In this document: piece after piece, positions 1-14,173 of the stretch
How positions within the stretch are numbered: the first letter of the stretch is position 1
Layout: every line of letters starts with the position of its first letter
Assembly: GCA_002708765.1 (NCBI GenBank)
Contig: PAPD01000013.1
Coordinates: 163,792-227,791 of the forward strand
Length of the DNA: 64,000 nt
From: Gammaproteobacteria bacterium
GTDB lineage: Bacteria > Pseudomonadota > Gammaproteobacteria > Pseudomonadales > Azotimanducaceae
Reading direction: 5' to 3'
Program-made: the position numbers and the translations under genes
Notes under the pieces: generated by a model
Databases searched by the model: none
What the model was told of the DNA's origin: nothing
Seen by the model: the letters and a program-made list of their open reading frames with translations, nothing else

Positions 1-888
1 AAAAAGAAAACGATGATCATAACGATCGGCCATTAATCCAAAGAAAATTTTTCCCAAAATCATTACCGATGCAAAAACGGAAACCAGAAAAGCAGCCTGC
101 ATCGAACTCACACCTAGATCAGCAGCAAAAGGGCGCAGATGTTGCTGAATACTGCCGAAGACCGTAATCAGTGGTAGAAAAGAAAGGACTATAATCCAGA
201 AATTAGGTTGCCGTAGAATCTCCTGAACAGTCCAGATTTTTTCTTTCATTTTGCCTAAATCCGGTTCAAGTGAATTAGAATCTGTATCATCTGGATTAAC
301 CAGATCAGGTCCATTGCTAACAACAAACCAGACCAGAGGAATAATTAACAAGCAAAAAACAACTCCGAGAACAAAATGCGCATCCCGCCAGCCCACAGAC
401 TCATAGAGCAAAGTTACCGTAGGTGCCATTATGACACCACCGATTGATGTGCCGGTCGTAGATAGACCTATGGCCAAACCCCTTTTGTCAATAAACCATC
501 GAGCGGCAAGAGTCTGGGCTGCAAGGGGTCCGGCTAAAGAAACCCCGGCGACAATCAGAGTTCCATAGATCAAAATTATCTCCCAAAAGGCAGTAGCATA
601 AGAGATCGATATGTATCCAAGCGATACCAGCGCCGTGCCAATACATATCATTGCCCTTATCGAATAGCGATCCATAGCGTAACCGACCATGGGGGCAACA
701 ACCGCTTGGCAAAGAGTCAATGTCGTAATCGGCACCATCACGTAAGTTAAAGAAACTTCAAGGCTCTGGTCAGCCAGCCATTCACCAACCCACAGGGTAT
801 AGGAGAAAAAAACTGACCCTATAATCAAGGCCTGAAAAACTAGACAAACGCCGACAATGTTCCAGCCCTTATACCAACGGGCCTTCAA
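1..888 (-). CDS. MFS transporter, partial (N-terminal 296 codons)
   Basis: The minus strand is open from about 888 to the left edge and reads as a hydrophobic, multi-span major facilitator superfamily protein. The N-terminal part has a KGWN-type start common in MFS carriers of the oxalate/formate or monocarboxylate kind. A first helix follows, then a loop with MDRYSIR (a motif-A-like cytoplasmic loop). A central hydrophilic linker lies near residues 205-225. No ATG lies in frame near the start; I placed it at a TTG at 886-888, but an upstream CTG is also possible and an in-frame TAG lies just before. The C-terminal half is outside the window. Substrate cannot be told. It is divergent from the alcohol dehydrogenase at 1090, so it may move a related small organic acid (inference). 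Confidence 0.75.
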   Translation of the reverse strand, partial: MKARWYKGWNIVGVCLVFQALIIGSVFFSYTLWVGEWLADQSLEVSLTYVMVPITTLTLCQAVVAPMVGYAMDRYSIRAMICIGTALVSLGYISISYATAFWEIILIYGTLIVAGVSLAGPLAAQTLAARWFIDKRGLAIGLSTTGTSIGGVIMAPTVTLLYESVGWRDAHFVLGVVFCLLIIPLVWFVVSNGPDLVNPDDTDSNSLEPDLGKMKEKIWTVQEILRQPNFWIIVLSFLPLITVFGSIQQHLRPFAADLGVSSMQAAFLVSVFASVMILGKIFFGLMADRYDHRFLF

Positions 889-1089
889 AAGCGATTCCAG
901 ACAAAGAGGCTATCCATCACCTTCCTTCTATAGTTACTAGATCCTAAGTTATTATAAATGAAGATAGCTCTAATTTTCTGTTCTCCAAGATCCAATAGAA
1001 ATTTAATTATCAGACCTCCAAAATCAAAAAGCGGCATCGGACAATTAGATGTTGTAATATCCCTTAATTAAGTCATTCCAGAGAGATTA

Positions 1090-2184
1090 ATGCTAATAGA
1101 TGCCGCCTTAGCCACTTCCCCCGAGCTTCCTTTTGAAATAAGGCAATTCAAAATAGAAGATCCAAGGCAAGACGAAGTTCTTGTCAAAATAGTTGCCTCC
1201 GGTATATGCCATACAGATATTGCGGTTAAAGATCAAAAAGTGAAACTCCCTCTCCCGATGGTCCTAGGTCATGAAGGCTCAGGCATTGTAGAGTCGATCG
1301 GAAAAAATGTTTCTGGTCTAGCTATCGGAGATCACGTGGTGCTATCGGGAGATTTCTGTGGGCATTGTAAACGCTGCATAGGCAAATTGCCTTCATATTG
1401 TGATGAATTTGTGGAGAGGAACCTGACCGGTAAAAGAATTGATGGCAGTTCTCCTTTGAGTCTAGGAGATCTGGTCACGGGTGGAAGGTTCGTGGGACAA
1501 TCTTCATTCGCCTCATATAGTGTAGTGTCTCAGCACTCTGCGATAAAAATCGACGATTCATATCCTTTGCACCTTATGGGCCCTCTTGGCTGCGGGCTCA
1601 CGACCGGTGTCGGGACTATCATTCACGCTCTCGAAGTATCCGAGCATGATCGCATCGCTATATTCGGAGCGGGAACAGTTGGTCTCGCCGCAGTTATGGG
1701 TTCAGTATTAAGTAATTGCTCCAGCATAGTGGTCATTGACCCTATCAACCATCGACGAGAACTAGCTCTTGAATTAGGAGCCACTCATGTCCTCGACCCG
1801 GAAGAAGATCGAGTCGTCGAAGGAATCCTGGACATCACCGAAGGAGGCGCTGACTTTTCCATAGAAGCCTCGGGAAATCCAGCAGCGGTTAAAATGTCGA
1901 TAGAGTGTCTAGCCCGCCCAGGATGGTGCGCTCAAGTAGGAGCAACACCAGCCCAAACTTTCCATTCTCTGGATATGGATCACCTAGGTTTCGGAAGAGG
2001 AATCAAAGGTGTCGTAATGGGAGACGCTTACGCCAAAGAATTCGTTCCATATCTGGCAGAACTTCACTCTCAGGGAAAACTTCCTTTCGAGAAACTTGTA
2101 AAAGAATATAAGTTTGATGATATCAACCTTGCAATAGCAGACAGCAGAAATGGCGATGTCATAAAACCGATATTGATCATGTAA
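1090..2184 (+). CDS. Zinc-dependent alcohol dehydrogenase (aryl-alcohol dehydrogenase-like)
   Basis: A medium-chain dehydrogenase/reductase of 364 residues, normal for the family. Catalytic zinc ligands are visible: C40 (GICHTD), H61-E62 (GHEGSG) and C168 (LGCG). The structural zinc lobe has four cysteines, C90, C93, C96 and C104. The Rossmann fingerprint GAGTVG is at 193-198, with an acidic residue (D217) at the end of the next strand, which favours NAD over NADP. It oxidises a primary or aryl alcohol, or reduces the aldehyde, in the cytoplasm; the general sequence resembles the benzyl/aryl-alcohol dehydrogenase group. It stands divergent from an MFS transporter and is followed 33 bases later by the MORN gene. 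The exact substrate is unknown. Confidence 0.88.
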   Translation: MLIDAALATSPELPFEIRQFKIEDPRQDEVLVKIVASGICHTDIAVKDQKVKLPLPMVLGHEGSGIVESIGKNVSGLAIGDHVVLSGDFCGHCKRCIGKLPSYCDEFVERNLTGKRIDGSSPLSLGDLVTGGRFVGQSSFASYSVVSQHSAIKIDDSYPLHLMGPLGCGLTTGVGTIIHALEVSEHDRIAIFGAGTVGLAAVMGSVLSNCSSIVVIDPINHRRELALELGATHVLDPEEDRVVEGILDITEGGADFSIEASGNPAAVKMSIECLARPGWCAQVGATPAQTFHSLDMDHLGFGRGIKGVVMGDAYAKEFVPYLAELHSQGKLPFEKLVKEYKFDDINLAIADSRNGDVIKPILIM

Positions 2185-2217
2185 ATCGTAAATCGCCGAA
2201 TTAAGGAGGACAGATCA

Positions 2218-2859
2218 ATGGATGAACACACCTCGGACCAGGGCATTTGGGAAGGACCATTAGATGATTCTGAAAAACCTGTTTTTGACGGACCGGGCAC
2301 TTTTACCTGGACTAACGGCGACAAGTACGTCGGCGAATGGCGGGATGGGAAATTTCATGGAGAAGGAGAATTAGCTTACGCTGATGGAGATCGATATGTC
2401 GGAAAATGGGAAGACGGGATGTATCACGGACAAGGGACACTAACTTCATCCAACGGATTCAAATACACAGGGGATTGGGAAAAGGGCAGTCCTCACGGCC
2501 AGGGAAACATGCACTTTGCCAATGGAGACGAATATATCGGGCAATTTCATGAAGGAAAGCAATCTGGACAAGGGACCACTGTTTACGCTGATGATGACAA
2601 ATATGTGGGGGAGTGGAAAGACGGGATGTATCACGGGCAAGGGACACTAACTTCGCCCAACGGATTCAAATACACAGGGGATTGGGAAAAAGGAAATCCG
2701 GATGGACAAGGGACAATGAGCTTTCCAAATGGAGATAAACATATCGGAGACTTTCGGGAGGGGAAGCGGCACGGACATGGAACAACAATATACTCCGATG
2801 GCAAAAAAGAAACTGGTGAATGGAAAGAGGGAGAACTAGACCAGGATTCCGGAAGTTGA
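2218..2859 (+). CDS. MORN-repeat protein
   Basis: This 213-residue protein is almost entirely MORN repeats of 23 residues (pattern YxGxWxxGxxHGxGxxxxxxGxx), about eight of them from residue 24 to 205. There is no signal peptide or membrane segment. A strong ribosome binding site (AAGGAGG) precedes the ATG. MORN repeats form an elongated beta-hairpin ribbon that often binds lipid or partner proteins; no enzymatic domain is attached here. A three-repeat block is duplicated: bases from about 2413 and from about 2620 are nearly identical for about 75 bases, a shift of 207 bases (69 residues, three repeats), which suggests recent internal expansion. Function unknown; the dehydrogenase just upstream may be cotranscribed. 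Confidence 0.9.
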   Translation: MDEHTSDQGIWEGPLDDSEKPVFDGPGTFTWTNGDKYVGEWRDGKFHGEGELAYADGDRYVGKWEDGMYHGQGTLTSSNGFKYTGDWEKGSPHGQGNMHFANGDEYIGQFHEGKQSGQGTTVYADDDKYVGEWKDGMYHGQGTLTSPNGFKYTGDWEKGNPDGQGTMSFPNGDKHIGDFREGKRHGHGTTIYSDGKKETGEWKEGELDQDSGS

Positions 2860-2918
2860 GCGAGATCTAACCCGTCAGAGATCGACAAAGCCTATATTCG
2901 TCATAATTATCAACGAAT

Positions 2919-4178
2919 CTAGAAAAAAACGTAGGAACGAACAACAATATTTTTTCGGCACCTAGCTTCTGGCAGAGCTGTAGGATCTATACAGGCAGTG
3001 TGAAATGACCACCGAGAGACCGATCCATCCAGAACCGAATCGTAGCATTTGAGCATCGATATCTCAGTCGAGCCTTGCTGAGGCAGCCAATACCAATCAT
3101 GTTCTGAGCGATGAGTAAAACGGGTCGTTTCACCAACCCGATCATCGTAAACCCGATAATTGGTTATGTAAGGCTGTTCCGAAAAAGAGGGCCAGGCACA
3201 AAGCACAAAAGGGTTTTGTTCTACCGTCTCCATAGGTTTAGCAAGATTGATAGACATAAATCTCGCGGACATTTTGGCCTCCACTTCACTGACACTATAA
3301 CTCTGAGTTCTACCAAAATTTCTCAAATTCTGTGTTAATAGTTCCCTGCACCTGACTCTCCCGCTGTTATCATTCAGGTCATTGTGAACGAGGTTCGCAT
3401 AATTCGTGTTAACCCCTGGATTCTTTTTTTCCTGATCTTCGGTACAATCACCTTCGTAATCTTTGTCAAAAATATCGTGGTTAAAAACCAGAGCATCGCT
3501 GGCACCGGGAAAAAATTTCAACAAAAGCTTCTCCATCTCTGGATAAAACACTCCCTCTACTTCACTAGGATCGTAAAAATTTTTGCATTCAGAATCGCAA
3601 TGGGCTAATGCGATACCCAATTTATCCATAGAAAGCGAGGTATACGGTGAGATGCCCGGGTGATATTCTTCAATCCGCCTCGCATCTCTAAGCACTTTCG
3701 GAAAGTAAAGCCTTCGCCTACCGGCATCGTACTCCTCTTTTCTTAGTATTTTTGAATCGTCTTTCCTGGATGGATCATTCCATAGTTGATTTGAAGGGAC
3801 TATTGAGTATGACGGAAACTCATCGACAGTGTAAGGCAGAGGCAGTGCCACGCCGCCCTCCGGAACAGCCATATTGGTGGATTCAATATACTCTAAGCAT
3901 TGTGAATATCGCTTAAAACCTTTACCCCATTTGGTCTCTATGGGACCGGAAACATTCTCGAGTGTTTCCATAAATTTTCTTCCCTCACCTTTGACCGCCT
4001 GAGAAATAGCGTCCTCGGTCGCGGCTTCGGTTCCAGCATCTCCTCCTCTATCAAACGAAAGATAGGACAAGCCCTCATTAGCAGCTATTGGTGGTGCTTG
4101 GCCAATAGTCAATTCACGATCAGGAACGTAAACTGATCGGGTTCTAGGTGCATCTCCGATATCAGAATTTTCAGGCAT
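2919..4178 (-). CDS. CmcJ/NvfI-family (GA4 desaturase-like) oxidoreductase
   Basis: A 419-residue protein with no signal peptide. The C-terminal half carries the pattern I associate with the CmcJ/AsaB/GA4-desaturase family. It has VHND near residues 264-267, then an NLAKP segment near 311-315. Next comes a W-x-x-P-Q-x-G-S-T-E-I-S-M-L-K-C-Y-D-S stretch (364-381), then FHTACIDP (392-399), and a closing R-x-x-I-V-V-R with YVFF at the end. In characterised members this fold belongs to Fe(II)/2-oxoglutarate-type oxygenases or relatives acting on natural products; the metal ligands here would be H265/D267 and H393. Residues 1-110 match nothing I recognise. The gene stands alone between the MORN gene (convergent) and the broken sugar dehydrogenase. 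Substrate unknown. Confidence 0.65.
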   Translation of the reverse strand: MPENSDIGDAPRTRSVYVPDRELTIGQAPPIAANEGLSYLSFDRGGDAGTEAATEDAISQAVKGEGRKFMETLENVSGPIETKWGKGFKRYSQCLEYIESTNMAVPEGGVALPLPYTVDEFPSYSIVPSNQLWNDPSRKDDSKILRKEEYDAGRRRLYFPKVLRDARRIEEYHPGISPYTSLSMDKLGIALAHCDSECKNFYDPSEVEGVFYPEMEKLLLKFFPGASDALVFNHDIFDKDYEGDCTEDQEKKNPGVNTNYANLVHNDLNDNSGRVRCRELLTQNLRNFGRTQSYSVSEVEAKMSARFMSINLAKPMETVEQNPFVLCAWPSFSEQPYITNYRVYDDRVGETTRFTHRSEHDWYWLPQQGSTEISMLKCYDSVLDGSVSRWSFHTACIDPTALPEARCRKNIVVRSYVFF

Positions 4179-9432: not shown

Positions 9433-9752
9433 AGGCCACCTCTTCGGTGCCAACGCACCTTCGCTCGCTTCAGTGAGTAAAGGGCTCTCCTATACTCTTT
9501 AAGAACCCCGTCTGCCCCGAGAAGATGTAAGGGGCTGACCATAATGAATCCTGAATTTTCCAATGCTTCGTCGCTTGAGGATAAAGGGAAGTTGCTCACA
9601 CTTCAACAGGGAACTCGGGCCAACCGACCGTGAACAGCTGCGGCCGATGGCGGAAAAAATGATCCTATCGCTCGCTAGAAAATGAGGCTTGCCATCTGCC
9701 CGCTGGCTCACGTAGATTGTGGGAAGGCACCCGACACAATTGAGAGGTCACC
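9433..9752. other. 320-base intergenic region between divergent genes
   Basis: No convincing gene is seen here. The right-hand third holds the first copy of the 34-base shared element (9685-9718). The left part is upstream of the SnoaL-like gene and should contain its promoter, but I could not pick a clear one. Base composition looks more GC-rich than the core region. A 29-codon open frame starting at 9544 has no supporting features. Confidence 0.4.
9685..9718 (+). repeat. Shared 34-base upstream element, copy 1
   Basis: This stretch matches 12033-12066 at 30 of 34 positions: the first 12 and the last 14 bases are identical, and the differences are confined to the middle eight. It ends 34 bases before the start codon of the exported protein at 9753. 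Short inverted ends (GCCA and TGGC) could pair across the variable centre. It may be a leader or operator shared by two genes, or a small dispersed repeat. Confidence 0.6.
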
Positions 9753-10049
9753 ATGAAAAAAATAATGTTGTTCCTGATTACACTGGGACTCGCTTGTGCG
9801 AGCCTCGCCGATGATAATCCGCCCCCCAAAACGGTGGTGAATCAGATTACGGAAGGAGTAAGCAGCACATCAGTAGCCGGAAGTATTACCGCAACTTTGA
9901 CGGCCTTTCCTGATAAATCCATCTGGTATGTTCAAAAAAATGTGAGCATTACTAAAAAAACAGGGGGATACGAATTTACCTACTGCTGGGTTGAAGAGCC
10001 CGATACGCCGCGATGCAGAGAAGTCCTTAGGGAAAAAGCTAAGAGGTAG
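9753..10049 (+). CDS. Small exported protein of unknown function
   Basis: A 98-residue protein with a clear Sec signal peptide: positive MKK, hydrophobic core, likely cleavage after the alanine near residue 19 (ASLADD). The mature part of about 79 residues is hydrophilic, with two cysteines (YCWVEE and RCREV) that could form a disulfide in the periplasm. GAGAGG precedes the ATG by five bases. No domain is recognised. It is preceded by the shared 34-base element also found before the 12099 gene. It could be a periplasmic or outer-surface small protein; no function is proposed. Confidence 0.7.
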   Translation: MKKIMLFLITLGLACASLADDNPPPKTVVNQITEGVSSTSVAGSITATLTAFPDKSIWYVQKNVSITKKTGGYEFTYCWVEEPDTPRCREVLREKAKR

Positions 10050-11122: not shown

Positions 11123-11266
11123 TTGCCCGAAAAGCACAAAACCCCGGATGGTTATAAGCTGGGGGCCTGGGTTGGCAAGCAACGCACGACAAAAGACACT
11201 CTACCAGAAGACCGTCGGAAGCGACTCGATGAACTCGGCTTTGAAGACCTTGACGCATTTAAGTAA
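11123..11266 (+). pseudogene. Fragment of a helicase-associated (HA) domain protein
   Basis: The frame from a TTG at 11123 to the TAA at 11264 encodes about 47 residues reading P-D-G-Y-K-L-G-A-W-V-G-K-Q-R, then L-P-E-D-R-R-K-R-L-D-E-L-G-F. This is the consensus of one helicase-associated repeat, normally found in tandem at the C terminus of large DEAD/SNF2-type helicases. The frame is closed upstream by a TAA at 11102, and no helicase motor lies in the window. I read it as the residual tail of a lost gene. Its stop lies in a hairpin that may be the old terminator. Confidence 0.6.
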
Positions 11267-11304
11267 GGACTCTTCCCGCGCGAGGGCGCGAGCCACTTAC
11301 TTTT
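11261..11304 (+). terminator. Imperfect hairpin followed by a short T run
   Basis: Outer arms AAGTAAG (11261-11267) and CTTACTT (11296-11302) pair. A CGCGC/GCGCG stem (11277-11281 and 11286-11290) with a GAGG loop forms the inner part, and TTTT follows at 11301-11304. It could terminate plus-strand transcripts from the esterase side; it overlaps the 3' end of the minus-strand gene at 11297. Confidence 0.4.
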
Positions 11305-11476
11305 CCAGATTCTGCCTTGTGGTTTCTATTTTTAAACGGATATCTTCAGCTTCTGACGAGAGAAAAGAGTACTCTCTGATTTTTCCGTTCCGTTGCATGT
11401 GCATCGCCTCTTGGAACTTAGCTTCATATTCATTCTGTAGCTTCTTCAAGGGGTCTTTCTTAAATAAACCAAACAT
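11297..11476 (-). CDS. DUF6435-type small protein
   Basis: A 59-residue protein beginning MFGLFKKDPLKKLQNEY and continuing with a KFQEAMHMQRNGKIREYSFL-type segment, the pattern of the short DUF6435 proteins of marine gammaproteobacteria. It is charged and mostly helical, with no signal peptide; the whole length is probably a helical hairpin. The frame is open further upstream to 11632, but those residues look non-coding and overlap the PPOX gene's 3' end, so I chose the ATG at 11476. Function unknown in the family. Confidence 0.75.
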   Translation of the reverse strand: MFGLFKKDPLKKLQNEYEAKFQEAMHMQRNGKIREYSFLSSEAEDIRLKIETTRQNLEK

Positions 11477-11529
11477 AGGATAACCTTTGCGATTAATGGT
11501 TATTACTACGTCTCTTTTAACTTGTTGGA

Positions 11530-11991
11530 TCAAGTTCGTGTTTGCTCCATCCGCCCGCCATAGTCCCAAGACGTTACCCACGTCGGGTGAAGCGTGAATT
11601 TTGTTTCGTGTTCCACCCGGCTGAGCAACCACAAAGCTAACTTTTGATTCGTCCCGCCGAGGTATCGTTCAATGACTCTTCTGAGAGTGTCTTCAGATCC
11701 CCCTACCTCTGCTAATACATCGGCTTTTCCTCTAACACCCTTGTAAGGGGGATCATTAGTAGCTATCTCAAAACCGCATTTTCGCTGACGCAAAAGCGTC
11801 TTTGCTAGTTTGCTCTCTTCATGACTTACGATAACGAGCTTCCCATCTACATATTCGAACCAAACCGAGCAAATCAACGGATACTCACCATCAAGCACAG
11901 ATATCCTAATAGGTATCTTGCTAGACACCAGAAAGTCTCGCAGCTCTTGCTGATTCCAAGCACTCTTTTTACTGAGATTGTCCATCTTCAC
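11530..11991 (-). CDS. Pyridoxamine 5'-phosphate oxidase-fold (PPOX) protein
   Basis: A 153-residue split-barrel flavin-binding fold protein. It opens with a helix (ELRDFLVSSKIPIRISVLDGEYPLICSVWF), then the strand pair with DGKLVIVSHEESKLAKTLLRQRKCGFEI, the usual FMN-phosphate area. KGVRGKADVL is the conserved fifth strand. Family members bind FMN, F420 or heme and reduce or oxidise small molecules, or protect against nitrogen or oxygen species. The gene lies directly upstream of the DUF6435 gene on the same strand, about 50 bases away. Substrate unknown. Confidence 0.82.
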   Translation of the reverse strand: MKMDNLSKKSAWNQQELRDFLVSSKIPIRISVLDGEYPLICSVWFEYVDGKLVIVSHEESKLAKTLLRQRKCGFEIATNDPPYKGVRGKADVLAEVGGSEDTLRRVIERYLGGTNQKLALWLLSRVEHETKFTLHPTWVTSWDYGGRMEQTRT

Positions 11992-12032
11992 CTCCTAAAA
12001 TAAAAGACCGCCCTTACGACTTGTCTCTAATA

Positions 12033-12066
12033 AGGCTTGCCATCCACCGGCGGGCTCACGTAGATT
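12033..12066 (+). repeat. Shared 34-base upstream element, copy 2
   Basis: Direct-repeat partner of 9685-9718 (30 of 34 identical, differences only in the centre). It begins 66 bases before the start of the membrane protein at 12099; copy 1 begins 68 bases before its gene. Both are also followed by CACAAT and an AGG-containing ribosome binding site, so the similarity extends loosely to the start codon. Confidence 0.6.
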
Positions 12067-12098
12067 TATACTACCCTTCCACAATGAAAGGAAACGTT

Positions 12099-12389
12099 AT
12101 GAGTGATTTTGGACTACTGACTTTATTGATTCTTGTTATTTTTGCAGTCTTAAACATCGTTTTATTTTTCAAGGTTTGGGCAATGACCAACAACGTAAAA
12201 TATATCCTGGAGTTTCTGCTGTTTAAATCGGGATATGTGCTCGAAGACACTTATCCCGGGAGCGGCACAAAAACATTCAAGGACGAAGAGGAACTCAAAC
12301 AAGATCCAGACGGGACCCGGTACTGGCAGAAAGAAGAAGCAACGGGAGATGAAGGTTCTGAAAAAAACTCGGAAGGAAAATCATCATGA
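12099..12389 (+). CDS. Small single-span membrane protein of unknown function
   Basis: A 96-residue protein with one hydrophobic helix at residues 5-24 (LLTLLILVIFAVLNIVLFFK), a short amphipathic stretch, and an acidic, disordered tail rich in E, D, K and G. I chose the ATG at 12099 because AGGAAA sits seven bases upstream; an in-frame ATG at 12084 and a TTG at 12021 lack comparable sites. Its stop overlaps the next start as ATGA, so the two are translationally coupled. It is likely an inner-membrane partner of the large exported protein that follows. No known domain. Confidence 0.65.
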   Translation: MSDFGLLTLLILVIFAVLNIVLFFKVWAMTNNVKYILEFLLFKSGYVLEDTYPGSGTKTFKDEEELKQDPDGTRYWQKEEATGDEGSEKNSEGKSS

Positions 12390-14047
12390 AAAAACTTATT
12401 TTTTTAGCCTTAGCTGCTACTTCACCGCTTATTGGTTTAACGAACACTTTCACGTTTGACGAAGCCGCGAAGGAAAACCTGTGTTTCCAAGACGTTCGTC
12501 ACGAATATGGAGGAGATGGTTTTTATACTGATTTTCAACTTTGCTGGGAAAACCGGTATGGCGGAAACGAGCATGAAAAAGGTTTCGGTTCCCTTGCCCT
12601 CAAAACACTGGGTCTCGAGCAAGAGTCCTCTAGTCCTTACATGCTAGTCCGTCGCATTCATGACGAAAGATTATTGTCTATTCCGTATAACGGTTATGAC
12701 GGCACCTACATAGGCCTTGCATTAAAAGGCGATCTGATTCAAGCATTGGGTGTCCTGCCTCCGAAAAAGCCTGAGGAGTCTGCGAACTATCCTAAACTCA
12801 ACGAATTTTTTGGTAAGTACTGTTCACCCGTTTTACCTGACATTGATCCAGCCACCGAAACGCTTTCAAAAAAAGCAATAAAATCGAGAGGAAAAGTCCA
12901 GAAAGAAATCGAGAAAGCACTTAAAAAAAATCAACGGCTGGAACTAAAAGATTGGGTCAAGGCAATCAGAAAAGGCACTGGGCAGCGTGTTTTCGATGAA
13001 TATGGTCGCCCCCAGTATTTTCAAAACATGACGTTTCTTTATACGGTTAAGCAACCATCAGAATTAAAAAACGACCTTAGCAATCTTCAAGCAGAGTGCC
13101 AACTCTGGTATCCCGAGGATCTGACACATTATGAACGTGGAAAGGTGGGAAGCTTACGGGTCAACAATGACAACGTCAAAGCTGCCTTATCCAGTCGATT
13201 CGATGAACTCGTCCGCGAAACCATCAACAAGCGAATAAAAGTTAAAGAAGAACTTGGAGGCAGTACTGACAGCGGTGGAGGGGCACAAAAAAAGAATCGA
13301 GAGATAACAAAAGACGTCGTGGTAAACCGAGGTAAATACGCAGCGTTCTATGCAAAACCCTACCCTATCGAGATTAAGACCATAACCCTGCCTGAAAAAA
13401 ATCGGTACGAGACCAGTGAAGAGCACGAAATCAGGCTCGAGGACTTTAAGAGACAGCAAAAAATAGAATACGTGTATGCGACGTTTGATGCGCCAAAATA
13501 TAACTTTGAAAATGAGGGTTTTAGGCCCTATTCTTTTTGTGATAGAGAAAACAGGCGACGTTTAGGGTTTAAAGGTACCGGCAGCTATGAAGCAGAAAAT
13601 GCGTTTGGCGCAAAAAGAAAGATCACTAAAAGAGAAATGGAAACAAGGGTTCATCGAATCGAGCGCAAATTCGAGGGATATGACATTTTCAAAGCTGTTT
13701 TTGGCAAAGCTGTTTTTCCTTACAAGCGCGAGGATGCAAAGCGCTTAGGCGAACTGGAGATCGTTTGCGTAGCCGAATTCCTTCCGGAGTGGCCTGAAAG
13801 TTTTTCGGATTACTCCAACTACACACGAGCTACTTATTCCGATCCATATGAGGACACCGAGAGCGTGACAAAGCTGCAAGCCTACGCATACTCTTGGTCT
13901 TTGGTTGAAAAAGGCACGAACAATATCTTAGTCAGTGTGCCCTTAAATATTGACCCTAAAAGCCTTGCTCAGGACAAGGAAACAGAAACTAATTTACGAT
14001 TCTTGGATAATGAAATTAACCGATTGCGAAAGAAATTTGTGAGATAA
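12386..14047 (+). CDS. Large exported protein of unknown function
   Basis: A 553-residue protein with a Sec signal peptide (MKK, hydrophobic core to about residue 18, then TNTF). The mature part is hydrophilic, rich in aromatic residues and K/E, with at least six scattered cysteines (C33 and C53 among them). A glycine/serine-rich linker near residue 297 (TDSGGGAQ) divides it into two halves. A 15-base tandem duplication at 13691-13720 yields the repeat KAVFG/KAVFP. No membrane segment follows the signal peptide. It starts within the stop of the small membrane protein (ATGA overlap) and ends about 50 bases before the tRNA-Thr gene. I recognise no family; a periplasmic or surface role is likely. 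Confidence 0.7.
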   Translation: MKKLIFLALAATSPLIGLTNTFTFDEAAKENLCFQDVRHEYGGDGFYTDFQLCWENRYGGNEHEKGFGSLALKTLGLEQESSSPYMLVRRIHDERLLSIPYNGYDGTYIGLALKGDLIQALGVLPPKKPEESANYPKLNEFFGKYCSPVLPDIDPATETLSKKAIKSRGKVQKEIEKALKKNQRLELKDWVKAIRKGTGQRVFDEYGRPQYFQNMTFLYTVKQPSELKNDLSNLQAECQLWYPEDLTHYERGKVGSLRVNNDNVKAALSSRFDELVRETINKRIKVKEELGGSTDSGGGAQKKNREITKDVVVNRGKYAAFYAKPYPIEIKTITLPEKNRYETSEEHEIRLEDFKRQQKIEYVYATFDAPKYNFENEGFRPYSFCDRENRRRLGFKGTGSYEAENAFGAKRKITKREMETRVHRIERKFEGYDIFKAVFGKAVFPYKREDAKRLGELEIVCVAEFLPEWPESFSDYSNYTRATYSDPYEDTESVTKLQAYAYSWSLVEKGTNNILVSVPLNIDPKSLAQDKETETNLRFLDNEINRLRKKFVR

Positions 14048-14097: not shown

Positions 14098-14173
14098 TGG
14101 TGCCGGAAAGAGGACTCGAACCTCCGACCAATTGCTTACGAAGCAACTGCTCTACCACCTGAGCTATTCCGGC
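14098..14173 (-). tRNA. tRNA-Thr (anticodon CGU)
   Basis: A full 76-base cloverleaf on the minus strand. The acceptor arm is GCCGGAA with TTCCGGC, the D arm is GCTC with GAGC, and the anticodon arm is GTTGC with GCAAT around the loop TTCGTAA. The T arm is GGAGG with CCTCT around TTCGAGT, and CCA is encoded. The anticodon CGT reads ACG (threonine). In Pseudomonas a tRNA-Thr gene sits beside the pilin locus; here it sits between unknown exported genes and pilD. Confidence 0.97.

Follow-up and report, generated by a model that had tools for sequence, protein, structure and literature searches.

The window analysed here, a 64,000-nucleotide stretch of contig PAPD01000013.1 from a gammaproteobacterium of the family Azotimanducaceae, contains two overlapping genes that encode a small one-helix membrane protein and a large, probably exported protein. 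The features needed to follow the argument are listed below in window coordinates, with the evidence on which each one is based.

9681..9718, + strand: first copy of a 38-nucleotide promoter-like block, before the gene for a 98-residue exported-looking protein (repeat search, promoter scan)
9753..10049, + strand: gene for this 98-residue protein, with a signal-peptide-like start by eye (it fails the export rule used below), left edge of a variable slot (open reading frame, conservation)
12029..12066, + strand: 38-nucleotide promoter-like block (TTGCCA, 18 nucleotides, TAGATT) before the small gene (repeat search, promoter scan)
12099..12389, + strand: gene for the small one-helix membrane protein, 96 residues (open reading frame, codon use, homology)
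12386..14047, + strand: gene for the large, probably exported protein, 553 residues (open reading frame, codon use)
13691..13720, + strand: 15-nucleotide tandem duplication within the large gene, giving KAVFGKAVF (repeat search)
14098..14173, - strand: tRNA-Thr(cgt), a neighbour that bounds the variable slot (tRNA call; the same tRNA precedes pilD in loci L003 and L004)

Both reading frames lie exactly where the earlier note had placed its two-gene module, and the start/stop overlap that it described was verified, since an ATGA is common to the two genes. An alternative in-frame ATG for the small gene exists at position 12084, but we prefer 12099, whose Shine-Dalgarno sequence (AAAGG, by eye) is better and which agrees with the homologues described below. 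A Shine-Dalgarno-like AAGGA can also be read upstream of the large gene, within the end of the small one. Codon use, scored with a model trained on seven neighbouring genes, singles out both frames (0.156 for the small gene vs at most -0.021 in the other five frames; 0.112 for the large gene vs at most 0.005). The GC3 of the pair (0.43 and 0.42) is close to that of secA (0.41) and, base composition being thus host-like, a recent transfer of the pair is not visible in it. The internal tandem duplication reported before is also present, with a period of 15 at position 13691 and the first 12 of 15 bases identical, and is a minor feature.

The pair indeed lies just beyond the 3' end of a tRNA, which is 50 bases from the stop codon of the large gene. 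Since the window holds no duplicated tRNA end and no integrase was noticed by eye among the open reading frames of 8-19 kb, this tRNA-Thr is a neighbour and not a demonstrated attachment site, and integration into the tRNA gene was rejected for lack of that duplicated end. No att copy was found in the window, and we recognised no prophage near the pair there.

The two copies of the 38-nucleotide block are identical at 33 of 38 positions (87%). The genome contains no third copy (a 17-nucleotide match at E 1.66 is due to chance) and the block was absent from the other loci then compared, where the best local score was 27 vs 51 between the two copies. The promoter scan found a -35/-10-like pair at 12037-12066 and another at 9689-9718. 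As the scan overall performed at chance (8 sites vs 7.0 in shuffles), the evidence for a promoter is the conservation of the block and not its match to a consensus. Each copy stops exactly where its -10-like hexamer does, leaving 34 and 32 bases to the respective start codons, which disfavours a role as attachment sites, and fold z-scores of +0.85 and -1.51 led us to reject an RNA element. These data are most simply read as an operon transcribed from a duplicated promoter and regulated jointly with the 98-residue protein.

The pair occupies a slot of variable content between the 98-residue gene and tRNA-Thr/pilD, as observed by comparison with three relatives. In L003 and L004, tRNA-Thr likewise precedes pilD and the content past the tRNA 3' end differs: L003 (positions 2-3728) carries a 226-residue lipoprotein-like protein without Pfam match, a 210-residue protein that looks exported by eye, and an aspartate-rich repeat protein of at least 716 residues, and L004 a 194-residue protein and a RidA-like protein. 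The slot of L044, where no tRNA was found, contains dioxygenase-like and sulfotransferase-like genes (by eye). The 98-residue gene is kept in L004 and L044, that is, in 3 of 17 genomes of the genus including our own. The nearest records of the prepilin peptidase come from two metagenome-assembled genomes of uncultured Gammaproteobacteria (65% and 63%), a single cell of the OM182 clade (62%) and a metagenome-assembled genome of the K189A clade (54%); a search of the open PMC library for the OM182 clade together with a genomic island yielded no match. Between the esterase gene and the pair, the minus strand of the window (11297-11991) encodes a DUF6435 protein (E 9.1e-24) and a protein weakly similar to pyridoxamine oxidases or F420-dependent proteins. 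A 45-residue open stretch at 11129-11263 (+ strand) corresponds to the end of a helicase-associated (HA) domain (PF03457, E 9.3e-10) and, as no intact gene is seen around it, is apparently a decayed remnant within the variable slot.

The large protein had been described as a cysteine-containing secreted protein. Its six cysteines (residues 33, 53, 146, 238, 385 and 461) and its N-terminal hydrophobic stretch are there, the latter following an initial MKK and spanning about 15 residues (1.61 from residue 4), but the protein fails a strict signal-peptide rule and, by eye, the usual cleavage site is missing; we consider it probably exported. Around residues 291-299 it is rich in Gly and Ser (by eye), and its C-terminal half may be reminiscent of some periplasmic domains whose function is unknown. 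That it belongs to no recognised family held up in all searches: nothing rose above threshold in Pfam, NCBIfam, PHROGs, PDB sequences or PADLOC, and no relative was credible. Sub-threshold matches in these databases included the NCBIfam model LptF (E 0.091) and two PDB sequences (E 0.32 and 0.82), all three taken as chance, and two Pfam models hit by fragments, namely Agro_virD5 (PF04730) by the C-terminal piece (E 0.0059, 15.7 bits, cut-off 25; 12.6 bits with the whole protein, under the Pfam gathering score of 25) and DUF7342 (PF24033) by the middle piece (E 0.0043, 17.5 bits, cut-off 31.6). We attribute the two fragment matches to chance, as they are below cut-off and the corresponding plasmid matches stand at E 9, the level at which the C-terminal part retrieved 11 plasmid records; the whole protein retrieved nothing from phages and plasmids at E 1 (tblastn).

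Genome searches with the large protein were equally barren. Within its own genome and among 97 relatives the protein's sole match was itself, and the 206 genomes of the family added one weak match (G203, E 0.004) that contains three stops and was judged chance. One other weak match appeared among 390 genomes of the order, and one more among 369 genomes of the class when the C-terminal 252 residues were used. Both were named by eye as OmpA-like lipoproteins (G565, E 0.0023, and G817, E 0.0014, each per genome) and resemble the large protein locally over a short charged stretch, and we regard them as chance matches too; by eye, the large protein is devoid of the OmpA-family peptidoglycan-binding motif. 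Peptide-pattern scans of viral and genome contigs, which detect close relatives only, found none. The structure prediction that the earlier note had proposed as a check gave no usable model for the large protein in two single-sequence runs (pLDDT 31.4 and 30.5, too poor for a fold search). The large protein is thus without detectable relatives in the genomes, phages, plasmids and viral contigs covered, although distant ones may exist in Bacteroidota.

The small protein was correctly described as a one-helix protein with an acidic tail: it has a single strongly hydrophobic helix (19-residue mean of 3.09 from residue 6), followed by a charged, mainly acidic tail (D+E 16, K+R 10). Two lysines (K25 and K34) lie just past the helix and an acidic residue precedes it so that, by the positive-inside rule, the protein is predicted to have its N-terminus outside and its C-terminal tail in the cytoplasm. 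The view that it lacks known relatives did not survive our searches. Its first ~38 residues (a module of about residues 4-38) recur in small proteins of two Bacteroides plasmids, of one phage of this genus and of viral contigs. In tblastn searches, which gave matches of 27-29 residues, they are 58.6% identical to a plasmid gene of Bacteroides finegoldii (WP_237924489.1, E 2e-3) and match the Bacteroides phage BS-TP2 at 66.7% (E 7e-3); the third match in the phage search (E 8) is due to chance. A pattern scan with the module added one further viral locus, and an alignment of three sequences retrieved 31 viral loci on 29 contigs, the same 31 places found by the single pattern FFK[VI]W[GA]M. A plasmid gene of Bacteroides ovatus (WP_004310961.1), reached with another homologue as query over residues 23-88 of the latter, carries the whole helix and motif.

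Across 19 aligned sequences, L22, F23, F24, K25, W27, M29 and T30 are invariant. The module consists of a helix followed by LFFKxWxMT(N), and the alignment, a profile and a masking test all place the small protein within it. A profile built without the window protein recovered the latter with 52.8 bits (E 1.3e-14) among 10,889 frames, comprising those of the window and of loci L003-L088, its sole other match being the same gene in L083. Because F, F, K, W and M belonged to the search pattern, the rest of the sequence was tested separately: with the seven pattern columns masked, and again without the window protein in the profile, the small protein scored 36.2 bits, a value reached by none of 2000 shuffles that kept the composition of each side (mean -0.44, maximum 8.4). 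Moreover, the B. ovatus plasmid protein alone, used as query, found the window frame (30.0 bits, E 3.7e-7) as its only match, together with the L083 copy, among the 10,889 frames. The viral homologues were kept only if confirmed by tblastn against the window protein and hence lean toward it, a bias that is small since 32 of 37 pattern-bearing stretches passed.

Past the module the homologues diverge. The two Bacteroides plasmid proteins have the helix and LFFKxWxMTN in common with the small protein but differ from it in tail sequence, and by eye the tails vary among homologues in general. PHROG 19110, a family of unknown function, is a 75-residue profile that runs from the internal methionine of MTND through the tail of the homologues and misses the helix; it matches several of ten module homologues from that methionine onward, and at E 0.01 it matches nothing in our genome or in 14 control genomes. 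Three homologues (L090 2483-2800, L157 3444-3758 and L117 5001-5306) have past the helix a second conserved region, about 60 residues long, covered by this profile. The two weak PHROG matches of the small protein concern other families, and its match to Pox_A28 is below cut-off (E 0.026) and was put down to chance. No Pfam or NCBIfam model reached its cut-off on the ten homologues, the sub-cut-off matches to MpPF26, DUF308 and ComGF being due to chance. The BS-TP2 gene (L091 2992-3170) is unannotated and has a stop codon just before the conserved helix; it may be either a remnant or a gene with an unusual start. The module has no name or description in Pfam, NCBIfam, PHROGs, PADLOC or our searches of the open PMC library, from which the string FFKVWGMTN is absent.

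The distribution of the module is patchy. Among 206 genomes of the family (three-row alignment, E 0.01), and among 369 genomes of the class and 319 of the phylum (19-row alignment, E 0.001; the samples overlap), it occurs in our genome only. Those carriers that have a name all come from Bacteroides (two plasmids and one phage), and the viral contigs probably belong to Bacteroidota as well, judging from similarity. The absence from relatives and the position in a variable slot beside tRNA-Thr suggest acquisition, and the simplest reading for the small gene is that it, and perhaps the whole pair, was acquired horizontally from a mobile element. It is possible, if somewhat unlikely, that the two genes instead serve routine upkeep of the envelope or a stress response in this lineage, the small membrane protein being paired with a periplasmic one that evolves fast, both co-regulated with the 98-residue protein and with no link to phages. 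The copy of the promoter-like block ties the pair to an exported-looking gene that two other members of the genus have kept, codon use is host-like, and PADLOC defence models match neither protein up to E 0.5, all of which would suit such a pair; by contrast, a slot of variable content and the lack of a credible match to either protein among the rest of the 206 genomes of the family are hardly what it would lead one to expect.

To examine the surroundings of the module, we used 30 loci, consisting of the 31 viral, two plasmid and one phage loci minus four near-identical copies (L097, L109, L115 and L120); L105 and L118 come from one contig, one of the two module genes of L100 was used, and the BS-TP2 gene, which has no usual start, was placed by hand. 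A same-strand gene lies within 250 nucleotides of the module in 22 of these loci (8 have none) and, by a simple rule, a close neighbour is exported in 12 of the 22 and in none of the other 10. Exported proteins are enriched among the close neighbours, with 13 of 31 vs 11 of 222 for the other genes of the same loci (Fisher p 1.1e-7, an optimistic value because the export rule was tightened after a first look; the first version gave 10/33 vs 14/237 with the copies still in, p 1.1e-4). The rule makes errors in both directions: the positive upstream of the module in L099 is doubtful (internal-Met call), the real-looking lipoprotein downstream in L111 is missed, and the large protein of the window itself fails it.

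The exported partners are diverse. Among the 13 compared (12 safe positives and the L111 protein), only those of L099 and L116 are clear homologues (E 5e-76), weak likeness of 13-21 bits links L095 with L114, L095 with L099 and L098 with L110, and no other pair reaches E 0.01. Ten partners were scanned against Pfam at E 0.001: eight belong to no family, one matches BDI_0842 and one SH3 plus DUF3761. When the 34 module loci were read in six frames, none of the 2769 resulting stretches matched the large protein, even with E values of up to 10 allowed. The check proposed in the earlier note, to look for the pair in other genomes, therefore has a mixed outcome: this very partner is absent from the module loci, but many module genes lie beside another exported protein, so that the arrangement recurs while the partner changes.

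These neighbourhoods bear on two further explanations. In the first, which we hold to be unlikely, the genes are merely adjacent: a small mobile-element gene would have landed behind a copied promoter, with read-through into an orphan that was already there and without any shared function. The lack of any frame like the large protein in the 34 module loci fits this, but the ATGA overlap with its internal Shine-Dalgarno sequence and the enrichment of exported-protein neighbours beside the module elsewhere speak against it. The second, more improbable still, is a toxin-immunity pair in which the large exported protein would be secreted to act against other bacteria, with its small membrane partner protecting the producer. 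One would indeed expect tight coupling of one small membrane protein to one large exported protein, the latter lineage-specific and encoded in a variable slot. Nevertheless, the small gene precedes the large one, whose product matches no family above threshold, and the homologues of the small protein stand beside varied exported proteins in which no toxin domain recurs.

Some module genes also have neighbours related to lysogeny and defence. S24 repressors are annotated within 2 kb of the module in L090 and L091 (BS-TP2); in BS-TP2 an integrase lies further from the module, beyond a transposase. Ten other nearby genes, picked by eye, comprised two S24 repressors, an AbiH, a GmrSD and a YbjQ protein, three proteins without match, one sub-threshold helix-turn-helix protein and one sub-threshold DUF7343 protein. 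Positions at the side of a repressor are a usual place for lysogenic-conversion and exclusion genes. Two further loci have peculiar layouts: L100 carries two different module proteins on one viral contig (2018-2362 and 5675-6061, ~3.3 kb apart), and in L103 (1985-6480) the module gene lies between an ATP-binding-looking protein and others in an arrangement that, by eye, resembles a defence island.

We favour the interpretation, with a probability of about 0.4, that the pair is an acquired accessory envelope operon in which a membrane adaptor is combined with an exchangeable exported partner, most likely a cassette akin to those for lysogenic conversion or phage exclusion. The small protein would sit in the inner membrane with its tail in the cytoplasm and serve as an anchor or adaptor for the large protein, made together with it and placed outside the inner membrane. 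The helix and LFFKxWxMTN would meet a fixed membrane partner, the large protein being a changeable exported client, and the unit would alter the cell surface or block phage entry. The phage-exclusion or conversion side of this interpretation comes from the homologues, which have S24 repressors, AbiH or GmrSD genes and a variety of exported proteins in their vicinity. The lysogenic-conversion and superinfection-exclusion genes found by prophage repressors, as a kind, also combine a small membrane protein with an exported protein or lipoprotein gene, and some module homologues lie within ~2 kb of S24 repressors; the window pair differs from them in having no recognised prophage nearby. The data show that the two genes exist and are coupled, that the module of the small protein has homologues, that the slot varies and that the distribution is patchy, whereas contact between the two proteins, export of the large one, phage exclusion and the joint work at the envelope proposed in the earlier note are what we infer.

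Small single-helix proteins such as this one are easily missed by annotation, as illustrated by the unannotated BS-TP2 copy and by a PHROG model that begins past the conserved helix. The large protein, for its part, offers a clear case of an orphan that looks expressed. That phages, plasmids and one distant bacterium have so strongly conserved a module in common, with partners that change, points to a specific membrane target. More speculatively, LFFKxWxMTN could be widespread among mobile elements as a membrane adaptor in which helix and motif stay fixed and both the cytoplasmic tails and the exported partners can be exchanged. Such a platform, into which envelope or anti-phage functions are plugged, would have passed from Bacteroidota to a marine gammaproteobacterium and would drive there a partner new to science. 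Should the partners serve phage exclusion or surface conversion, the motif would offer a simple handle for finding more of them.
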